This document shows, piece by piece, positions 1,138-58,782 of a DNA stretch of 64,000 bases; the first letter of the stretch is position 1, and every line of letters begins with the position of its first letter. The notes beneath the pieces are model-generated. The model saw only the letters and a program-made list of their open reading frames with translations, ran no database searches and was not told where the DNA came from. The position numbers and the translations under genes are program-made. Origin of the DNA: Diogma glabrata (lineage: Eukaryota > Arthropoda > Insecta > Diptera > Cylindrotomidae); contig OY856188.1 in NCBI GenBank assembly GCA_963693315.1, forward strand, positions 155,075,369-155,139,368, given 5' to 3'.

Positions 1138-1804
1138 GAAAATATATATCTGTATAAGCATTAGAAAATATGCATACAACGTATTTTTCAAGTCATATCG
1201 TTAATATCATTATAGTGCTAATTTTCATATCAAACGAGTTGTCAACATTATACCCAGGGACAACATCGCAATATTTAACAACAGATTAAGATTTTGATTA
1301 AGATCAAAACAAATTTGCTTATTTAAAAAACACGTCAGCCATTCCTTATCTTATTCTTAAATTCGAGTAATAAAATAATTAGAATCAAAAAAACATTAAG
1401 TTTGAATTTTTATACAATCAATCACATTGAAAGCTTGCTCGTCGACAGCACTTAAAAAATCGGTAAAAAAGATATAGAAATTCTAGATCCACTAAAAATA
1501 AAAGAACGAAATATGTAAAGATTTTCGTTTCTAAAATACAATAACATAAAGAACAACGTTCTACTAGCTATATATTCCAAAACAAGCGCTCACTCTAGTG
1601 ACAAAGGTTTTTGGGATATAAATAAATTAAAACAAGAGAAGAAATAGTATTGGCGTTAAGCTTTTCTATATGCATAGCTCAAGGTTCTCAAAAATATAAA
1701 ATAAAAATGTTGTGAAAAGTTTCATTATCATTAAAAAATAAACTGAATACGCGTATTATCAGGCACTAGAAAGAATAAACTCAAAAATAGTTGTACATAA
1801 AATT
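1138..1804. other. AT-rich DNA, nothing recognised
   Basis: No open frame, RNA gene or repeat with recognisable ends was seen here. Confidence 0.4.
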
Positions 1805-1882
1805 AGAATAATAAGACTGAATCTAACAAAATATGGTGTGCAATTTATGAAATTTTTTTGCTATCCACAAAATTGTCGATCG

Positions 1883-1961
1883 ATCTAGTTTCGAACCGAT
1901 AAGAACTTTTTATTACACTTTAAAAAAGTATATCATTCTCATCAGGACTAGCCGACTAGAT
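1883..1961 (-). ncRNA. Hammerhead ribozyme, core intact
   Basis: Read on the minus strand, ATCTAGTC is followed by an 8-nt stem I (GGCTAGTC), then CTGATGAG, a long stem II, GAAAC and TAGAT. Stem III pairs ATCTAG with CTAGAT (6 bp). Stem II pairs GAAUGAUA with UAUCGGUUC, leaving one bulged G. The cleavage triplet is GUC, between plus-strand positions 1953 and 1954. The layout is type III, open at stem III. Stem I is very short (3 bp, one G-U, 2-nt loop). Related copies: 54444-54519 and 54898-54973. Confidence 0.8.
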
Positions 1962-2334
1962 ACACTACCAAAAAAATTTTTCGCTATATAAACCTAAAAT
2001 AGGTCACTACTCTAGCGAAGTATAAGAAACCAAAAAACTTTCATAAACATATGTTTATTAGATTCAGGTTTAGTCAATTTGTTTCTCTAGTTGATCACTA
2101 TTGTTGTTATACTCTAACCAAGTTAGAATTGGATAACAAACTTGTATCGTTGAGAAGAAGATGACTATCTTCACTTGTGTCTGTCGACACATTATCTACA
2201 ATTAATTCAATGAATTATTTGTGATATTACATCACTCCGATGGAAATAATCCATCATAAATAATAAGACTGAATCTAACAAAATATGGTGTGCAATTTAT
2301 GAAATTTTTTTGCTATCCACAAAATTGTCGATCG

Positions 2335-2409
2335 ATCTAGTTTCGAACCGATAAGAACTTTTTATTACACTTTAAAAAAAGTATATCATTCTCATCAGGG
2401 CTACTAGAT
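2335..2409 (-). pseudogene. Hammerhead ribozyme, broken copy
   Basis: The CTGATGAG and GAAACTAGAT blocks and stem II match the copy at 1883-1961. The 5' part reads ATCTAGTAGCC, which lacks the five bases spanning the cleavage triplet and the first half of stem I. The RNA should therefore not self-cleave at the usual site. Confidence 0.7.
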
Positions 2410-2529
2410 TGAGTCCGAAGTCTAGTCGGAGTGATGTAATATCACAAATAATTCATTGAATTAATTATAAAATTAGAAATTAAAAAAAAAGAAAACAGAG
2501 CAATAAAGAAAATGCACAAAATAAATTAC

Positions 2530-25184: not shown

Positions 25185-25945
25185 TGTCAAGAAAATCGTA
25201 AAGTGTGTCAAAACAAGGAAATTTGCATATTTTTGCTTAAAAAACGTTCATTTTAAGTGATTACGAGTAGGAACATTGAATTTGGAGAAATCTAGATGGT
25301 CAGGATTGGTATGTAAGACCAATACCTAGATTATTGCATTATAAGTTTGTCAAAAAAACAATGTCGAGTGTGTCAAAAGAATGATTTTCTTTTTTTAACC
25401 CAAATTTTTGGATAAAAATAAAATTAATTATTTGTATGGCATGAAATGTAATTGAACATGAAAATTGGACATAGAAATTTTTGATTTTGTTATAATTTTT
25501 GGAATTTTTTGGAATTTTGAAAAAGTTTGTATTTTTGATTTTGTTATAATTTTTTCAATATTTTAAGAATTTTTGCAATATTTTTGGAATATTGAAAAAA
25601 GTTTCAATTTTTGAGTTCGTAAGAATTTTTGGAATATTTTTAGAATTTTAAAAGGTTTAAATATTTGTTTTTATTATAATTTTTGGAATATTTTTGGAAT
25701 TTTGAAAAAGTTTGTTTTTTGATTTTGTTATAATTTTTGCAATATTTTAAGAATTTTGGAAATAGTTTGAATTTTTTAATTTTGAATTTTTGCAGTGTTC
25801 TTAGTATTTTGAAAAAAGTTTCAATTTTGATTTTGTAAGAATTTTTGGAATATGTATTTTCAAAATTTTGAAAAAGTTTAAATTTTTGATTTTATTATAA
25901 TTTTTGGAATTTTGAAAAAAGTTTCGCGTTAGAACCTTAAAAAAG
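25185..25945 (+). repeat. Foldback-family fragment with AT-rich minisatellite
   Basis: Starts with GTGTCAAGAAAATCG and shares GTGATTACGAGTAGGAACAT with the arms of the element at 31690-36905. It then runs into about eight imperfect copies of a unit of about 55 bp around TTTTGGAATTTTGAAAAAGT. Confidence 0.65.
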
Positions 25946-31689: not shown

Positions 31690-34600
31690 TGAGTCCGCAT
31701 CATAACATCGAAAAATCAAATCGTAGAATCACCAGAAATCACAAAACCGAAAGTTCATACCACCGAATTTCATATCATCGAAAGTTCATACCATCGAAAA
31801 GTCATAGCATCGAAAGATCATATCACCGAAAATTCATTACGTCGAAAAATCATAGCACCGAAAGATCGCATCACCGAAAATCATATCATCGAAAATTTTA
31901 TTCACAAAATCGAAAAATCATATCATCGAAAATCGTAAAATCGAAAAAAAATCATATCATCGAAATATCATTACATCGAAAATATTCGATGTAATGAATA
32001 AATCATTGCATCGAAAAATCATATCATCGAAAAACAGAGTGTACTCTCCTAACAGATAAAACTTTTGTAAATTAAAATGTTAAATGTCAGCAGTATATGT
32101 TAATTGGGCAATTCGTTTGAAAATGTACATTTATTTGTGGATTTTTTTAAAATCAAAATTTTGTATGTGTGAAACGAAAGAAAAAAACTGAATTCTGAAT
32201 TTTTTATTTATTGCTTTAAAATGCAGTTTTGCCGGCATGCATTTTTAGTAATTTCTTTTGGTTTACATAGATAATATATTATGTGCTATCATATTTTGAA
32301 GATAAAGCTTTAGGATTTCAAACAAATTTTTCTACATTTTTTTGAATAATACTATAGGGCAGGGCTATTCTTTTGGAAATGCGCTTGTTTTATAGTTTTT
32401 TTTTGAAAATGCCTAAACATTTGGTATGTTTAGTATTGACGAAATTTGTATTGGCGAAAGAAAGTGTTTGTCAAAAAATCATGAAGTGTGTCAAAACACG
32501 AAAATGAGCATATTTTTTGCTTAAAAAATCGTTCATTCTAAGTGATTACGACTAGTAACATTGAATGTGGAGAAATTTGGATGGTTGGCATTGGTATGTG
32601 GGACCAGAACCTTGATTATTGTATTGTAAGTGTGTCAAAAAATACTCTCAAGTGTGACAAAAGAATGATTTTCATTTATTTTTTAACCCAGTTTTTTGAA
32701 AAAAAATAAAATAATAGTATGTAATTATTTGTATAACTTGAAATGTAATTGGACATGTTTCTATCCAGTTTTAATCCTTATAGGAACAATTGGGAAATAT
32801 CAAGTTGTTGCAGATTAAATGTCGTTTAAAAAAAATGTAATTATGAGAAAGATATTCTTTTGTAATCGTTTTGTGTGATTCCACGACTTCTGAATAACAG
32901 GAACAGTTGGAAAATAAGTTTGAATTTTTGATTATGTTATAATTTTGGCAATATTTTTAGAACTTTGAAAAAAGTTTAATGTTTTATTTTATTATAAGTT
33001 TTGGAATATTTTTAGAATTTTGAAAAAGTATTTATTTTGTTTTGATTTTTGCAATATCTTTAGAATTTTAAAAATAGTTTCAATTTTTGATTTTATAATA
33101 TTCTCTTGAGTCTTGAGTATGTTTGAACTTTTGAAGAAAATTGAAATTTATGATTTTATTATAATTTTTAGAATCTTAGAAAAAGTTTGAATTTTTGAAT
33201 ATGTATGTTATAATTTTTGCAATATTTTTGGAATTTTGAAAAAAGTTTCAATTTTTGATTATGTAATAATTTTTGGATTATTTAGAATTTTAAAAAAGTT
33301 TAAATTTTTGATTTTATTATAATTTTTGAAATATTTTTAAGTTTTGAAAAACATTTAAATTTTTGATTTTATGATAATTTTTAAAAGTTTTAGGAAAAAT
33401 TTTTGGAAAAGTTTGAATTTTTTAATTTGTAATATTCTCTTGAATATTTTTGGATTTTGAAGAAAACTGGCATTTTTGATTTTATTTTAATATTTGGAGT
33501 TTTTTTTAAATCAATTCAATCAGACTTCTTTTTTCCGGCAATGTATTAATATTACTTCGGTCTAAAAGACCTAAGTATTACATTCATGAGCCAAAAGTGA
33601 AATTCTTACCCCCACATTACCTACGAAATCTAGAAAACCGCTGGAGCGATTTCAAAAATTTTGGTGCCTAAAAATAGGTATACTCTATGGACAGGTCCGA
33701 AAGGACGCTGTGTTTGATAACTGTACTGGAAGTGTGTCAAAAAATCATTAAGTATGTCAAAAATAGCAGACTTTCATATTTTTGACTTAAAAAACGTTCG
33801 ATTTGAGTGATTACGAGTAGAAACATGGAATTTGGAGAAATCTTGATGGTAGGGATTGGTATGTGAGATCAAAAACTAGATTATTGTATTAGAAGTTTGT
33901 CAAAAAAATCTTGCATAATAATCGCAGAATAATCTGATGTACAGCTATTGGAAATTTAACAATGAAAAAAACAAGAAAGCAATTATTTAAATAAAGAAAA
34001 TATGAAGGAAATGAAACTTCAGAGCTTTGAGGTATTAATGCTTTGGTCAGTTATGGTGACATTATTTTTAGTTTTAAGCAGAGACATATAACAAAAACAA
34101 AAGTCTGCAAAAAATTGATGGTACAAATATTTTCTGGTAGGAAATGTATTATAAAACTAACACAAAACGATTGTGTTGAAATGTTGTGTTGTCGGAAAAC
34201 TATCATAAATATATCATAACAGACAGATCATAAATGTTAAAAAATATATGAAATGATGCGCAACGAGGATTAGCTCAGGTAAATTTCTCAAACACTCTCC
34301 ATTTAGAAATCAACCATTTTAACTTTGAAGCGTGTCACATAATTAAGGAACATGCCATTTCATTTATACAATTACATTTTAGTTTTGTTTTGATATTTTT
34401 TTAAGCAAATTTGATTTTTCTCCTTTTATTTTAGGACATTACAAATTTAAATAATAAAACATTAAGGATTGTGTTTGTGTTAAGGCTTTTAATACAGTTT
34501 TCACCAAAAGCTTTGCACGAGGACAAGATTTTTAACAAAATCAAATATTAAAACTTTTTCAAAAATTCTAAAAGTATTGCAAAAAATATTGCAAAAATTG

Positions 34601-36905
34601 AAACTTTTTTCAAAATTCCAAAAATTATAATAAAATAAAAAAATAAAAATAGTCCAAAAATTCTTACAAAATCAAAAATTGAAACTTTTTTTAAAATTCT
34701 AAAATTATACATAAAAAAATTCTATTTTGTTTTTCAATATTATAAAAATATTGCAAAAATTAAAACTTTTTCCAATATTCTAAAATATTGCAAAATTGTT
34801 ACAAAATCAAATATCCAAACATTTTTTAAAATTCCAAAAATATTTCAAAAACTAAAACAAATTTAAAAATTTCCATGTCCAATTTCATTTTCAATTACAT
34901 TTACGTCATAAAAACAGCTACATTTTTTTCCAAAATATGGCTAAAAAATAAATGAAATCATTTTTGACACACTTGACATTATTTTTTGACAAACTTATAA
35001 TGCCACAATTCTCAATAATAATAATAAAATTTCATGTCATATAAATAATTAATTTAATAACACACTTGACAACATTTTTTTGACAAACTTCTAATGCAAT
35101 AATCTAGTTTTTGATCTCACATACCAATCCCCACCATCAAGATTTCTCCAAATTCAATGTTTCTACTCGTAATCACTTAAATCGAACGTTTTTTAAGCCA
35201 AAAATATGAAAATCTGCCATTTTCGACATACTTAATGATTTTTTGACACACTTCCAGTACAGTTATCAAACACAGTGTCTTTTCGGACCTGTCCATAGTG
35301 TATACCTATTTTTAAGAACCAAAATTTTTGAAATCGCTCCAGCGGTTTTCTAGATTTCGTAGGTAATGTCGGCCGACCGGAAGACAGCCAAACATTTTTA
35401 TGCTTTTTTAGACTCAGTAGGTCCTAAAACGTCGAGAAATACCAAAAAAAGTGGGAGTAAGAATTTCACTTTTGGCTCATGAATGTAATACTTAGGTCTT
35501 TCAGACCGAAGTAATATTAATACATTGCCGGAAAAAAGAATCCTGGTTGAATTAATTTAAAAAAATTCCAAATCAAAAGTTCCGACTTTCTTCAAAATCC
35601 AAAAATATTCAAGAGAATATTACAAAACAAACAATTCAAACTTTTTTCAAAAATCTTAAAATTTTTAAAAATTATCATAAAATCAAAAATCTAAATGTTT
35701 TTTTTCAAAATTTAAAAATATTTCAAAAATTATAATAAAATCAAAAATTTAAACTTTTTCAAAATTCTAAATAATCCAAAAATTATTACAAAATCAAAAA
35801 TTGAAACTGTTTTCAAAATTCCAAAAATATTGCAAAAATTATAACATACATATTCAAAAATTCAAACTTTTTCTAAGATTCTAAAAATTATAATAAAATC
35901 ATAAATTTCAATTTTCTTCAAAAGTTCAAACATACTCAAGACTCAAGAGAATATTACAAAATCAAAAATTGAAACTATTTTCAAAATTCTAAAAATATTC
36001 CAAAACTTATTATAAAATCAAACATTAAACTTTTTTTCAAAATTCTAAAAATATTGCCAACATTATAACATAATCAAAAATTCAAACTTATTTTCCAACT
36101 GTTCCTGTTATTCAGAAGTCGTGGAATCACACAAAACGATTACAAAAGAATATCTTTCTCATAATTACATTTTTTTTTTTAAACGACATTTAATCTGCAA
36201 CAACTTGATATTTCCCAATTGTTCCTATAAGGAGTTAAAACTGGATAGAAACATGTCCAATTTCATGTTCAATTACATGTTTGAAATCCTAAAACTTTAT
36301 CTTCAAAATATGATAGCACATAATATATTATCTATGTAAACCAAAAGAAATAACTAAAAATGCATGCCGGCAAAACTGCATTTTAAAGCAATAAATAAAA
36401 AATTCAGAATTCAGTTTTTTTCTTTCGTTTCACACATACAAAATTTTGATTTTAAAAAAATCCACAAATAAATGTACATTTTCAAACGAATTGCCCAATT
36501 AACATATACTGCTGACATTTAACATTTTAATTTACAAAAGTTTTATCTGTTAGGAGAGTACACCCTGTTTTTCGATGATATGATTTTTCGATGCAATGAT
36601 TTATTCATTACATCGAATATTTTCGATGTAATGATATTTCGATGATATGATTTTTTTTTTCGATTTTACGATTTTCGATGATATGATTTTTCGATTTTGT
36701 GAATAAAATTTTCGATGATATGATTTTCGGTGATGTGATCTTTCGGTGCTATGATTTTTCGACGTAATGAATTTTCGGTGCTATGATTTTCGATGTTGCG
36801 ATTTTCGGTTGTGTGATTTTTCGACAGTATGATTTTTATTTTTCAATTCATTGCTTTTTTCGATGTAACGATTTTCGATGGTATGATTTTTCGATGATAT
36901 GACAC
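31690..36905. mobile_element. Foldback transposon, about 5.2 kb, minisatellite ends
   Basis: Two inverted arms (31690-33920 and about 35080-36905) flank a unique loop of about 1.15 kb. The outer 350 bp of each arm is a minisatellite of about 15 bp (ATCATATCATCGAAA variants). The next part is unique sequence (for example GTCAGCAGTATATGTTAATT at 32087), then AT-rich repeats of about 55 bp, and last a TTCGGTCT hairpin block. The left arm has about 410 bp more (about 32335-32740). The right arm has about 110 bp near 35380-35450 that the left lacks. No protein is encoded. The design resembles Drosophila FB elements. Confidence 0.8.
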
Positions 36906-52074: not shown

Positions 52075-53300
52075 ATTACTTCGGTCTGAAAGACCTAAGT
52101 ATTACATTCATGAGCTCAAAGTGAAATTCTTACCCCCACTTTTTTGGCATTTCTCGACGTTTTAGGACCTACTGATTCTAAAAAAGCAAAAAAAAAATGT
52201 GTGTCTGTCTGTCGGCCGTCCGTCCGTCCGGCCGTCACAACCGACGAAATCTAGAAAACCGCTGGACGGATTTCAAATTTTTTTTTTCTAAAAATAGGTT
52301 TACTCAATGGGAAGAGCCGAAAGGACGATGTGTTCGATAACTGTACCGGAAGTGTGTCAAAAAAATCGTCAAGTGTGTCAAAACAAGGAAATTTGCATAT
52401 TTTTTGCTAAAAAAACGTTCATTTTAAGTGATGACGAGTAGGAAAATTGTATTTGGAGAAATCTTGATGGTCGGGATTGGTATGTGAGATCAAAATCTAG
52501 ATTATTGCATTATAAGTTTGTCAAAAAAATGTTGTCAAGTGAGTCAAAAGAAAGATTTTTATTTATTTTTTTACCCAATTTTTTGGAAAAAAATAAAATT
52601 AATTATTTGTTTGAAATGAAGTTTTATTATTATTATTGAGAATTATTATAAGTTTGTCAAAAAAATGTTGTCAAGTGTGTCAAAAGATTTTTATTTAGTT
52701 TTTTACCTAATTTTTTGGAAAAAAATAAAATTGTTTGTTTGAAATGAAATTTTATTATGATTATTGAGAATTATGGCATTATAAGTTTGTCAAAAAATGT
52801 TGTCAAGTGTGTCAAAAGAAAGGTTTGTATTTATTTTTTACCCTAATATCTTTAGAAAAAAATAAAATTAATAGTTCGTATGACATGATATTTTATTATT
52901 ATTATAGAGAATTATGGCATTATAAGTTTGTCAAAAAATAATGTCAAGTGTGTCAAAAAATGATTTCATTTAATTTTTAGCCAATTTTTTGGGAAAAAAA
53001 TGTAGCTGTTTTTATGACGTAAATGTAATTTAAAATGAAATTGGACATGGAAATTTTTGAATTTGTTATAGCTTTTGAAATATTTTTGGAATTTTGAAAA
53101 AGTTTGTATTTTTGATTTTGTAATAAGTTTTGCAATATTTTTAGAATTTTGGAAAAAGTTTTAATTTTTCATTTTGTAAGAATTTTTGGAATATTTTTAG
53201 AATTTTGAAAAATTTTAAATTTTTGATTTTATTATAATTTTTGGAATTTTGAAAAAGTTTGATTTTATTTAATTTAACAAATTTTTTGGAATTTTGATTA
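52075..53300 (+). repeat. Foldback-family fragment, single arm
   Basis: Starts with ACTTCGGTCTGAAAGACCTA, as in 33555 and the inverse near 35500. It includes a GC-rich stretch of CTGTCTGTCGGCCGTCCGTC type and three tandem copies of a unit of about 120 bp around TTGTCAAGTGTGTCAAAAG. It ends in AT-rich repeats of about 55 bp. Confidence 0.7.
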
Positions 53301-53340
53301 CAATTTTCCGGCAACGTATTGATGTTTCGTGTTTTTTTTC

Positions 53341-54437
53341 CCTTTATCTCCATTTAGGAGCATAGGGCGTCTACTAGACTGGACCATCTGACTCTGTTCG
53401 GGGCAATCGCTTTCAGTTCACCCCATGTCTTGCCGATTTGTTTTGCTTCAGCTACCGTTTTCTTCCACGTCATGGGTGGTCTTCCAACTCTCCTTTTACC
53501 TTGTGGATTCCACTCTAGGGACATCCTTGTTATATCTTTAGCTGATTTCCTCAGTGTATGTCCTATCCATCTCCATTTCCTTTGTTTTATCTCGGACTCA
53601 ATGTCTAACTGCTCTGTCTGCCGTAGAAGTTCCTGGTTACTGATGGTGTTCGGCCAGAAGCATTTGATCAGTCTTCTCAGGCATTTGTTCACAAACACCT
53701 GTAGTTGATTTGTGATCTTCTTTGTGTGTTTCCACGTTTCACACCCATACAGCAGTACTGACTTGACACATGCATTTAACATTCGTAGCTTTGTCTTTCT
53801 TGACAGGACGGATGCATTCCAGATGTTGTGAAGCATATTGAACGTATTTCTAGCTTTGTTAATACGCTGACTGATATCTTCTTCAGTCCCGCCTGTTTTT
53901 GCTACAGTACAACCAAGGTACACAAAATTGTCGACTTCATCCACTTGTGTATTGTTGATGGTAATTGGTGTTATCGTTTTGGTGTTCAATCTCATAGACT
54001 TTGTTTTCCTGATATTAATGTTGAGACCGACTTCATGTGCAAGGGCTGATAGCTTCTGTATTTTCTGCTGCATGTCCGTATGTGTGTGTGTAAGTAGACA
54101 GATGTCATCTGCGTAGTCTAGATCATTGAGCCGGCTTGTTGTGTTCCATTGGATTCCATTTGGACTTGCATCATCGAGCTTTCTCATGATACTATCTAGT
54201 ACTATCAGGAATAGTAGCGGGGATAGTACACAGCCTTGTCTCACTCCTCGGTGGTTGTAGTATTTATCACTTTGCCGTCGTTTGTATTGTATGTATTCTG
54301 TTTCCAGCATCCCGATACATTTCTTTGATTAGATCAACTATTTTCTTCGGGACGCCCATTTCACAAAGTGTCTTTCATATCGCGCTTCTGTTAATTGAGT
54401 CGAAGGCGCGTTCGAAGTCCACGAAGAGGAGATCTAA
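53341..54437 (-). pseudogene. RTE-like LINE reverse transcriptase, 5'-truncated
   Basis: Minus strand: LLFVDFERAFDSINR (first catalytic Asp, 54380-54430) is interrupted by a stop. Then come VRQGCVLSPLLFLIVLDSIM, LNDLDYADDICLLTHTHTDM (YADD box), VYLGCTVAKTGGTEEDISQR, CVKSVLLYGCETWK, and the C-terminal RWIGHTLRKS and KRRVGRPPMTWKKTV. This pattern is typical of RTE-clade elements. The open part is 318 residues (53354-54310). Endonuclease and RT fingers are missing; the hammerhead array follows directly at 54438. Confidence 0.82.
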
Positions 54438-54443
54438 GAGTTT

Positions 54444-54519
54444 ATCTAGTCGGCTAGCCCTGATGAGAATGATAGACTTTTTTAAAGTTTAAAATTTTCT
54501 CATTGGTTCGAAACTAGAT
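54444..54519 (+). ncRNA. Hammerhead ribozyme, core intact
   Basis: ATCTAGTC, cleavage after C at 54451, stem I GGCTAGCC (self-complementary), CTGATGAG at 54460-54467, stem II, GAAA at 54510-54513, then CTAGAT closing a 6-bp stem III. Stem II pairs GAAUGAU with AUUGGUUC, with one bulge and G-U pairs. Confidence 0.82.
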
Positions 54520-54897
54520 CGCTCTAAAATTGTATGGATTGCAAAATGTTTCATAATTTGCACCATAATTTTTTAGATTCAGTTCTTATATTATTCTTGA
54601 TGGGAGATTTTCCATCGGGGTGATGTTCTATCACAAATAATTTACTGAATTAATTGTTGATCATGTGTCAATAGACACAAGTGAAGACTAGTCATCTTCT
54701 TCTCACAGATACAAGTTTGTTATTCAATACTAGAATGTCTAGAGTATAACAAAACAGTGATCACCAGAGAAATTAATTGACTAAACCTGAATTTATTAAA
54801 TGTATGTTTATGTAAATTTTTTGTTTTTACACTTCGCTAGTGTTGCAACCTAATTTTTGGTTATATACATTAGCGTTGACATTTTTTGGTAGAGTTT

Positions 54898-54973
54898 ATC
54901 TAGTCGGCTAGCCCTGATGAGAATGATAGACTTTTTTACAGTTTAAAATTTTCTCATTGGTTCGAAACTAGAT
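54898..54973 (+). ncRNA. Hammerhead ribozyme, second core
   Basis: Same sequence as 54444-54519 except for one change in the stem II loop. Cleavage is predicted after 54905. Confidence 0.82.
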
Positions 54974-55429
54974 CGCTCTAAAATTGTATGGATTGCAAAA
55001 TGTTTCATAATTTGCACCATAATTTTTTAGATTCAGTTCTTATATTATTCTTGATGGGAGATTTTCCATCGGGGTGATGTTCTATCACAAATAATTTACT
55101 GAATTAATTGTGAGCTTTAAATCATGTGAGCTATTGTGAGCTTTAAACATGTATTACATACAATTTCAAACCAACAATTTTGATATACAAATGTAGTTGT
55201 TTCAGGTTATACTATCTTTCCTACGTTCAATATTTATTTAGCATGATGACTAGAATGCAAATTGCAAAAGACAGTAGCAATATAACATTAAAAAACTGCA
55301 TTATAGATCAAATTTTTAAAATCCGTAAATAGAAATTTTTATTATTTTTATGAATTCATGAATAAAAAATAATAATTTTAATGGTATTTAATAAAAATTA
55401 AAAAAAAAACAATAAGAACAATATACCAA

Positions 55430-55492
55430 GTCCAGGAATTGAACTCACGATTTACAGAACACCAGTCAAGCGCGTTATCCACATCGCAATTT
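55430..55492 (-). other. tRNA-like sequence
   Basis: Minus strand GCGATGTGGATAACGCG resembles a D arm and GTGAGTTCAATTCC a T arm at tRNA-like distance. Imperfect stems suggest a SINE head or tRNA pseudogene. Confidence 0.4.
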
Positions 55493-55924
55493 CAAACGTT
55501 AAGAAATGATGGATGTGTTTCATATTTAAAAATATTTTGCTGATTTAAAAATTGGTAATGCGAATATATGGATTTTACTCCAAATAAAATTTTTCAACGC
55601 GGCTAAAGAAGTTTTCACTTCAAAAATTTCAGTACAACTTCTACACCACCAATTTCGACGATGCTATATTTTTGTACTCGGTGTGGACAAAATAACAATT
55701 CTGTTTCCAAAAGAATACGATCGAAATCGTAATTCTGCGTTGGTGCAACCCAAAAGAATACAAATTACATGCGAAAATAATACACTATAAGTTGTTTTTA
55801 GTTTTGGAGGTTTTTCATTTCAGAATATGTAGTTTCAGTCGTGACCGTTTTTATCAACTTCAAAAATACCAATTTTTATGTCACGTGACATGACTATAGT
55901 CATGACATCTGATGTGATGCTCTT

Positions 55925-56345
55925 TCAGTAGGGTGTAAATTTTATTTCTTGAAGAACCGCGACTAGAATATTGTTTTTGTACATATAGTTAATGATATTA
56001 TCGAACTTATTTATGAGACCGTTACAATTTCGTTGCGTTATTTTCACATCACTTGGGTTTTACAGCTGCGCGTTTATTCGCATTGTATTCTGCTGCGAAC
56101 TCGTGTTGGAAAGATGACTTATTGGGCAACATTGCGCTATATAGTTTTGGCTCAATTGCTTGTGTGGCAAGACCGGAGCAGTTTTTGAGCTAGCACCATT
56201 CCTTACAGCTGTTACACTGGACGGATGTAGCCCTTAAAATGATTTTACATATTGGCTATTGCTCAACGCCATGTTTTAGTTGGTCCAGAATTTCTTTCAA
56301 TACCAGCAATGACGAGGAGGATTTGACGCATTGAGGTCAGTAACA
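55925..56345 (-). pseudogene. LINE N-terminal fragment (2A-like motif, Cys-rich finger, endonuclease start)
   Basis: Minus strand, several frames: QILLVIAGIERNSGPTKTWR (degenerate NPGP-type motif), then QCNSCKEWC-like PHD finger residues. Next comes ITQRNCNGLINKFDNIINYM and NNILVAVLQEIKF, the first motifs of an AP endonuclease. The fragment ends there. It may belong to the LINE family at 19280-21440. Confidence 0.6.
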
Positions 56346-56419
56346 GCTACTTCTTTATCCAAAAAATAGATCGATGGGGTAGACTTTCGTCGAAATTTTT
56401 TTGATGTTCCATAATACTA

Positions 56420-57150
56420 GGTTCCGAGCACTGCAGGGGCGTAGACCCGTCTGTCTTGAGAAATCTTTGGATAGAAACCTATCCAAAACACCTTAAATAT
56501 TCTGTAAAGCTAGAACATTCCATAAGGCAGTAAAAGATAGTTTATAACTTTTATATCAACAAAAATTTCTTGCATAGAACGATATAAGTAGACTGATCAC
56601 TAATTTTAAAAGTTAATTAAGAGGAACCAAATAACATAAAACAGATAGTAAGTAGGAATCAATATAAAGCTGCTTTAACACATTAAAAAATATATGTATA
56701 AAAATGAAAAATTTTATGTATACATATTTCTGTATATATAGCAAAAAATTTAATCCTAGCGGTTCTTGTTCCAGCTCAGTTCCAGAATTGACGTCATATT
56801 CAATCTAGCTTATTAAACTTTTAACGTTTGATACTAACCTAGTTCTCCAGTTTGCTAAATAAAGTTGATCCATAACAGAAAATGGAAGTCTCAACTTCGT
56901 CAAAAAATTTATTTCAATCTAAATATTTTTATTTCATTTAAATTTCATAAACAATTCATATCATCTATTTTATTAACAATTACTTTTATTTAAGAGAATA
57001 CATTTTAATGAATTGCAGGAGTTCTGATCGTATTATTGTTGTTATAGCATATAATGGAAGTTATATCAAAAACAGAAAATCTGATTTGAATAAATAATAA
57101 AAAATATTTTATTTCATACTGATATCTAAAACGACATTTTTCGAATTATT
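56420..57150. other. Intergenic DNA, nothing recognised
   Basis: AT-rich, without a supported frame. Confidence 0.4.
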
Positions 57151-57154
57151 TATA

Positions 57155-57236
57155 GTACAAAAAGTTGAACTTTAACGTCCTAGGACTTTATAAAATTTTA
57201 TAAAGTCCTAGGACGTTAAAGTTCAACTTTTTGTAC
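57155..57236. repeat. Perfect 82-bp palindrome
   Basis: 41-bp arms from GTACAAAAAGTTGAACTTTA to the centre TAAAATTTTA are perfectly complementary, with no loop. Confidence 0.9.
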
Positions 57237-57243
57237 CATAAAT

Positions 57244-57307
57244 GTTGAACTTTAACGTCCTAGGATTTTATAAAATTTTATAAAGTCCTAGGACGTTCAA
57301 GTTCAAC
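57244..57307. repeat. Second palindrome, 64 bp, related to the first
   Basis: Arms GTTGAACTTTAACGTCCTAG and inverse, two mismatches. It repeats the core of the palindrome seven bases upstream. Confidence 0.88.
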
Positions 57308-58782
57308 TTTTTGAGCAAAACTTAAAACTCATTTCTTTTTATTTTAATAAATTTCCAGTATGAAATAAAATTTTGTATTTACCTCCAACGAAAAGTGTTT
57401 TTAAAGGTACTCACTAGTAATTTCGGCCTCAGCTAGACGCCTCGGCCGTAAACAACTAGCTCGTACTTTAATGTTTCACTTTTCGTTCTAGATAAATAAA
57501 TAACTATTAAAAATTAAACCAACTTTAAAAAAATTGTGTATAAACTATTAACAAATATGTTTTTGATTTATTTTTCTTGTATAAATATTAGTCTATCAAT
57601 CACACCTTTAAAATAACTATATAGAACTGATCCTTTACTGCAATGTTTCAAAATGATATTTAATCTGTATTCTAATTACTTTACTAGCGAAGTATCCGTT
57701 GCTAAAGAACCAACATTAACATATTTTATAATTCCAGCTAATCCATTTTCTGCTTTCCAGTTGTTATTTAAAAATTAATATTTTCTTCATAGTCGTTAAG
57801 GTTTCAGCATGTGAGGAGTCAACTAATCCTTAATCATCTTAATTTATATTAACAGGTGTTATATGGCAGAAGAAATAAAAACTTTTTGCAAATCAATAGC
57901 AAATCTCAAATTATTTTTTTCAAGGGTTCATTTTAGGAATATGGTTTTCTGTTAACCCGAGTTCCCATTCTAAATTCAGCTTTCGTATATATTTTTAAAA
58001 GAAAATACTAATCTTTTTCATGCGATATAAAACAACCTTGTAGTGGGTAAACAATAGCTTATCCGCAATTTAAAATGTTTTGTAATTCATATTTCCACAA
58101 TCACCTATACTAACTTTTTTAAACATTCTGGTGAATATATAGTTTTGTCACGCAACAGTTTATAATAATTATAATATCATGAACACAATCTAGCAATAAT
58201 ACGATTATAGATTAAGATATTTTCAGTTTTATATGGTTTTATCAAGAGATTCATAAATTAATTTAATATAAATGTAGCTCTTGACTTGTTTACAACTAAC
58301 CTGAGATCGTTAAAAATAATTATGAAATATATGTTTAGTCATGTAATCGCAGCATAATCGTTGACTACTGAAGAACAACAAATAATAAATTGAAAATATG
58401 TTTTTTCATTATTTTTGAACTTCTTACAAATTAATATTAAATGTATTAGGATGGTTCAATGTGGGACACATCGCCTATCACAGGCTAAATTAAGAATAAC
58501 TAAACTAGTGGAGATATTGCAATATTATTTAATTTCAAAAGACCGCGTACTGTCCGTAAGAAATATGTTTTAAGCATTTTCTGTAGAATACGTTAACAAA
58601 AGAATATATTTCGAGTATTAATAATATATAATTTATATATTATAGATCCGATGAAATAATATAAATCATTTTCATCAACTTTAGATTCAAAAATTTCATT
58701 GGACATCAACTTTTTCTCCTGCTGTTAATAGTTGTTCTCTGTTTGGAAAAGAAGTTGTTAGCAATTAATATTAAAAACATGA
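57308..58782. other. Probable 3' UTR and intergenic DNA of the downstream minus gene
   Basis: No coding exon seen. The part next to 58783 is likely 3' untranslated region of the Nausicaa-like gene. Confidence 0.4.

Follow-up and report, generated by a model that had tools for sequence, protein, structure and literature searches.

The window described here is a 64,000-nt stretch of Diogma glabrata DNA (contig OY856188.1, positions 155,075,369 to 155,139,368 of the forward strand), which lies on contig 4 of the 1.33-Gb genome. It contains two copies, A and B, of a short repeated element, and copy A directly abuts a LINE fragment. The features in and around copy A are as follows.

53354..54436, minus strand: 5'-truncated LINE abutting copy A (RVT_1 and DUF6451 domain matches)
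54437..54890, plus strand: unit A1, a 454-bp direct repeat (unit position 1 = 54437) with at least 271 genomic matches
54444..54519, plus strand: type III hammerhead of A1 (descriptor scan; predicted cut 54451/54452)
54452..54459, plus strand: palindromic 8-nt stem I segment GGCTAGCC, without a loop, which could pair with the copy in another unit
54497..54506, plus strand: in-loop segment complementary to the core CUGAUGAGAA (54460-54469), a predicted trap of 10 bp, G-U pairs counted
54587..54594, plus strand: putative start site 1 (unit 151-158), from array ends
54648..54656, plus strand: putative start site 2 (unit 212-220), from array ends
54891..55111, plus strand: unit A2, a partial direct repeat (unit 1-221)
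54898..54973, plus strand: type III hammerhead of A2 (descriptor scan; predicted cut 54905/54906)

The two units are spaced by 454 bp, and A2 matches A1 at 220 of 221 positions, with one difference. The first-pass annotation had proposed tandem hammerheads at 54444-54519 and 54898-54973, and the GUC triplet, CTGATGAG, GAAAC and the self-complementary GGCTAGCC are all found where it had placed them; within each unit, the order is AUCUAGUC, the predicted cut, GGCUAGCC, CUGAUGA, stem II and GAAACUAGAU. Stem III, which had been called a perfect 6-bp helix, is 7 bp long once the A15.1-U16.1 pair is counted. The proposed type III layout also holds, with its 8-nt self-complementary stem I, GGCTAGCC, lacking a loop. 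Using a descriptor that demands CUGANGA, GAAA, a stem II of at least 3 bp and a stem III of at least 5 bp, four type III sites were found in the window, two in each copy and all with a 7-bp stem III, and no type I site. Across 300 windows simulated with an order-2 Markov model, the total was 2 type III matches with a stem III of at least 6 bp, or 0.007 per window, along with 6 type I matches. A chance origin of the hammerhead match, taken alone, is unlikely but not impossible, and becomes very unlikely once the remaining evidence is added. No Rfam family reached its gathering score anywhere in the window, and no Rfam hammerhead was reported for 54300-55300 up to an E value of 10; the RF00008 search of the D. 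glabrata genome gave no matches, its 14 controls being likewise silent.

There are no stop-to-stop frames of 120 aa or more inside the element, and so no reverse transcriptase plus GIY-YIG frame of the kind carried by an autonomous Penelope-like element (PLE). The right end of copy A falls at about start site 2 (in A2, 55102-55111); neither a target-site duplication (TSD) nor a minus arm was found for this copy. Directly to its right, TTGTGAGCTTTAAA occurs twice, 26 bp apart, at 55108-55150. Within the element, GGTTCGAAAC at 54505-54514 overlaps the GAAAC of the hammerhead and resembles the pol III B box consensus; a tRNA-type promoter was considered on this basis and dropped, as ARAGORN finds no tRNA at 53000-57000 and a T run lies upstream. 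On the left, the element had been described as sitting directly against a truncated LINE, and the RVT_1 and DUF6451 matches at 53354..54436 bear this out; the LINE is presumably of the RTE type. Elsewhere in the window, there is an 80-bp unit, apparently a near-perfect palindrome, in 1.9 copies (57160-57313); diverged AT-rich arrays, often with units of 53-56 bp and in both orientations (25476-25910, 32910-33503, 34582-36095 and 53051-53299); and a transporter exon whose product shares 67% identity with a protein of Diabrotica balteata, its best matches reaching 70-75% and the other named ones likewise coming from insects.

The second copy in the window has a more complete insertion structure:

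1797..2478, minus strand: copy B overall, belonging to subfamily B and 81% identical to A
1797..1808, minus strand: second copy of the TSD
1809..2403, minus strand: direct arm, running from unit 19 through 454 and on from 1 to about 160
1883..1961, minus strand: complete type III hammerhead (descriptor scan)
2426..2466, plus strand: inverted arm of 41 nt, head-to-head with the direct arm, its outer end at site 2
2467..2478, minus strand: TSD TTCTAATTTTAT, whose leading T or TT may be part of the element

The direct arm comprises about 1.3 units and terminates at site 1, and the TSD is 10-12 bp long. The head-to-head junction (2404-2425) is a 22-nt filler with CTAGA/TCTAG ends. When the subfamilies are compared, A and B differ at 93 of 465 aligned columns, and none of these falls within the 42 hammerhead columns (hypergeometric probability 5e-5; three of 465 rotations of the mask likewise give zero differences); the alignment takes the 3' half of stem I from B1, because B2 is changed there. 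The hammerhead is strongly conserved across subfamilies A and B.

The element belongs to a large and recently dispersed family. In the D. glabrata genome, scoring of 32 among 323 candidate places gave at least 271 matches to unit A, and for unit B 40 of 518 places gave at least 188. Neither these copies, nor copy B, nor the hairpin that competes for the core had been noted in the first-pass annotation. The unit A matches listed are 99-100% identical, and among them are insertions on four contigs. These matches were grouped by eye into about 31 arrays, 20 of which were fetched; this sample favours the youngest arrays, as the match list is ordered by score. The 20 arrays contain 110 full units, and show 93 substitutions relative to the majority in 63,941 sites, or 0.15% (HSPs of at least 97% identity). 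They range from 2 to 14.5 units, with single arms of up to 10 units that stay in phase, and GGCTAGCC is the majority form of the palindrome in the fetched arrays of both subfamilies. As a test for selection at the RNA level within the young arrays, 8 substitutions were counted in hammerhead sites against 9.3 expected, and an attempt to trace source RNAs found the variants to be mostly private to arrays. A 15-mer scan of viral contigs gave at least 120 stretches, which we took as chance, and longer exact patterns had no matches in viral and genome contigs. With unit-length tandem arrays, a hammerhead in each unit, noncoding sequence, TSDs and recent dispersal, the earlier description of the locus as retrozyme-like is borne out, and the identification of the element as an insect retrozyme with a putative type III hammerhead is well supported.

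The arrays of the family have a mirror architecture. By BLAST, 18 of the 20 A arrays are head-to-head, with minus units on the left, plus units on the right and the 3' ends pointing outward; L155 is a nineteenth by eye, its minus arm of ~20 nt having been missed by BLAST, and L162 consists of a single arm. TSDs of 10-16 bp, a length that includes any letters common to flank and element, bound 18 of the 20 arrays, and none was found for L151 and L165. The TSDs are 78% AT, compared with 72% in the flanks (15 loci). Moreover, the outer ends are fixed: among the 18 arrays with TSDs, 34 of 35 arm 3' ends lie at two sites, 18 at unit 151-158 (site 1) and 16 at unit 212-220 (site 2), a rule already put on record from copies A and B ahead of the retrieval of the arrays. 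One of each site is seen in 15 of the 17 double-armed TSD loci; in a set of 14 such loci with both ends at the sites, 13 are mixed (P = 0.0009 under free choice per arm). The exceptions are L160, which uses site 1 twice; L168, where the left arm ends at unit 97 (the sole outlier of the 35); and L151 and L165, with left ends at 264 and 275 and right ends at a site (218 and 155, respectively). The inner (5') ends, by contrast, are scattered: none of 36 centre junctions is at the cut site, unit 15/16, and 8 fall in unit 1-42 against 3.3 expected by length. Five further arrays were fetched for subfamily B (L183-L187), and all are head-to-head. Only in L183 and L185 do both ends lie inside the stretch, and these two (TSDs of 11-12 bp) and copy B of the window each use one of each site; L187 has its left end at site 2 (the right end lies outside the stretch), that of L184 misses site 1, falling short by about 10 nt, and that of L186, at about 373, is off the rule.

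These ends bear on how the element could have spread. We regard it as exceedingly improbable that the family is a satellite that grew through unequal exchange and matches the hammerhead motif by chance; tandem arrays are what this would produce, and a chance type III match arises about once per 150 windows of such composition, but it leaves unexplained the dispersed, TSD-flanked insertions on four contigs among the matches listed, the mirror layout, the fixed ends and the conservation of the hammerhead between subfamilies. The idea was dropped on the TSDs, fixed ends and conservation. Mobilization by a LINE, for example the adjacent RTE-like family, had been raised in the first-pass annotation. 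Copy A does abut a 5'-truncated LINE, oriented like the missing minus arm, and LINEs are known to leave 5' inversions with TSDs; the route would be ordinary target-primed reverse transcription with twin priming. However, LINE reverse transcription begins at the 3' end of the RNA, whereas both retrozyme arms begin at fixed internal sites of the unit, and nearly all of the fetched arrays are mirror-type. Additionally, the LINE touches one copy, for which no TSD was found, and the right flank of copy A has no common word of 8 bp or more with either the LINE tail zone or the left side of A. Twin priming was therefore dropped as a general mechanism, given the fixed internal starts and the mirror arrays, and we consider LINE mobilization a poor prospect, the architecture of the insertions being instead of the PLE type. 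The adjacent LINE is probably not part of the element, and a mixed LINE/retrozyme insertion at copy A is conceivable.

The D. glabrata genome carries PLE frames: at least 150 GIY-YIG matches were found (150 scored of 4129 candidates), many of them in long frames of up to 840 aa. One of these elements (L181), which encodes RVT_1 and GIY-YIG in 814 aa, is itself inserted head-to-head as a mirror pair; the 3' end of one arm extends about 38 nt further than that of the other, and there is a 12-bp TSD-like word of low complexity. Another (L182; C598:2500-8500) is, over its 6-kb stretch, a simple tandem with a unit of about 2868 bp, and GIY-YIG matches recur along this contig at ~2868-bp spacing. 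Five loci (L171, L172, L174, L175 and L177) represent a PLE family with a hammerhead-like CTGAGGAG..GACCC..GGGTC..GAAAT, and in L172 and L174 this motif is present on both strands. In a sequence search against the PDB, the PLE frame had no matches. Since the retrozyme has no BLAST match longer than 18 nt to the 12 PLE loci compared, its link to PLEs is architectural.

In published work, PLEs are described as occurring in partial tandem arrays beside an inverted copy, with TSDs of 8-10 bp or in some cases none (PMC3846280), and the purified Anolis PLE (PAc) is reported to cut and extend both strands and to initiate inside its RNA, the spacing of the start sites corresponding to the 'tail' (PMC11167929). 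The retrozyme has partial tandems, adjacent inverted copies and short TSDs in common with PAc, Adineta Pen (PMC3846280) and L181, together with two internal start sites that give an optional tail, AT-rich targets and a hammerhead in the repeat. It differs from PLEs in its 454-bp unit without a reverse transcriptase or endonuclease frame, its type III hammerhead and its arms of up to 10 units. Furthermore, its start sites are ~61 nt apart, compared with a PLE tail of 30-40, and its two arms nearly always differ in start site, whereas PAc is reported to show no start-site difference between strands in vitro (PMC11167929). It is the agreement in arrangement, internal starts and AT-rich TSDs that points to a Penelope-type mechanism.

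The sequence is that of a hammerhead, yet the energy model predicts it to be mostly off, because a trapped hairpin outscores the active fold. The 3' strand of the stem II loop has two options: one is stem II, which contains a bulged G and is 7 bp long in A and 8 bp in B, and the other is pairing with the core CUGAUGAGAA (10 pairs in A and 11 in B). The two A-B changes inside the 10 pairs preserve the trap, and one of them also gains a stem II pair; when the loops were shuffled, 129 of 20000 (A) and 65 of 20000 (B) reached 10 pairs. In A1, A2 and B2, the hammerhead fold is predicted to be less stable than the free ensemble by ~11-14 kcal/mol. Dimeric folding, which had been suggested from the self-complementary stem I, is compatible with the predictions in part: for two units, either in trans or as a 684-nt 1.5-mer, exchange of stem III and pairing of the stem I palindromes are predicted, which is the topology of a double hammerhead, but the core remains trapped in the dimer too, and the double hammerhead itself, at -34 to -35, is far above the MFE dimer at -52 to -65. 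The predicted trap suggests that cleavage would need a partner, either a second unit or a protein. There is a reported parallel in Anolis, where the Penelope (PAc) ribozyme cleaves only if its protein is there to assist (PMC11167929).

The best explanation, which we judge to be likely, is that the element is a nonautonomous retrozyme copied repeatedly from both cut strands by a Penelope-type reverse transcriptase. In transcripts of the tandem units, a type III hammerhead would recur every 454 nt; the hammerheads would cut the RNA to monomers, and a host ligase would presumably close these into circles. A Penelope-like (GIY-YIG) reverse transcriptase would then cut both strands of the target and begin copying internally, normally at site 1 (151-158) on one strand and at site 2 (212-220) on the other; it would pass several times round the template, making as many as 10 units, and head-to-head joining of both cDNAs would leave a target duplication of 10-16 bp. 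Counting against this scheme are the predicted trapping of the core, the position of the centre junctions away from the cut site and the lack of a strand difference reported for PAc. Alternatively, the template could be a linear multi-unit transcript, the hammerhead being dispensable for mobilization and either kept for another reason or a relic. The predicted trapping of the ribozyme core would fit with this, as would the report that PAc hammerhead mutants still insert, unprocessed RNA being the dominant substrate (PMC11167929); many-unit source arrays do exist, moreover, and long transcripts from them could yield multi-unit cDNA. The copies are too alike for a circular template to be told from a linear one. 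Nevertheless, the strong conservation of the hammerhead between subfamilies 19% apart, the arms that reach 10 units in phase and the reported expression of metazoan type I retrozymes as circles (PMC7229834) argue against a linear template, which we consider unlikely, albeit with an appreciable chance of being correct. Returning to the Penelope-type scheme, in its most detailed form a Penelope-type enzyme would carry out rolling-circle reverse transcription of ribozyme-made circles twice per insertion, once for each strand and with a start site proper to that strand; the type III ribozyme, with its palindromic stem I, would be bistable and self-trapped, and opened only by a second unit or by the Penelope protein. 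This full combination is put forward tentatively, as something that may hold but is slightly more apt to fail.

Dimeric hammerheads of newt and PLEs are said to have been described by Lunse in 2017; as in the present element, a weak palindromic stem allows a double hammerhead to be formed from two units, although in those cases the palindrome is stem III of type I motifs, as opposed to stem I in the type III motif of the present element. Forster 1988 is cited for double hammerheads in PMC6155905. Among known retrozymes, the closest relatives in form are the metazoan non-LTR retrozymes, noncoding tandem units of ~150-450 bp with a type I hammerhead in each (Cervera and de la Pena 2020, PMC7229834): these also combine a hammerhead per short tandem unit with no LTR, a TSD longer than 4 bp and a low GC content. 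The element departs from them in its type III hammerhead with a loop-less palindromic stem I, a layout that the earlier annotation had called unusual for an animal retrozyme; the animal retrozymes in the papers cited here do carry type I. The words 'inverted' and 'head-to-head' are absent from the main text of PMC7229834. Plant LTR retrozymes, the subject of PMC4918200, have type III hammerheads in direct repeats (PMC7229834, PMC7761336) and, like the element, a ribozyme blocked by complementary sequence, in the plant case within the predicted circle, but they are reported to differ in having LTRs (about 350 bp), a spacing of 600-1000 bp and TSDs of 4 bp, compared with the 10-16 bp TSDs seen here. 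Type III hammerheads are also reported in animals for HDV-like agents and for termite and fly genomes; these have extended helices I and II, unlike the element, and those of termites are described as isolated motifs, whereas the element forms a dispersed array family (PMC7936874).

PLEs have been named among the candidate helpers of animal retrozymes (PMC7229834, PMC7761336), a proposal based on the type I hammerheads of both, their tandem occurrence and their co-existence (PMC7229834). In the titles and abstract openings of the open-licence papers that were searched, mirror retrozyme arrays with fixed start sites were not found. Judging by the present family, type III hammerheads can occur in animal retrozymes, and the family may also provide a natural example of a ribozyme hidden by its own stem-II loop. 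As to which enzyme spreads animal retrozymes, the ends of the insertions point to a Penelope-type mechanism in this one genome with its hundreds of copies, and they offer exact start sites that are open to test.
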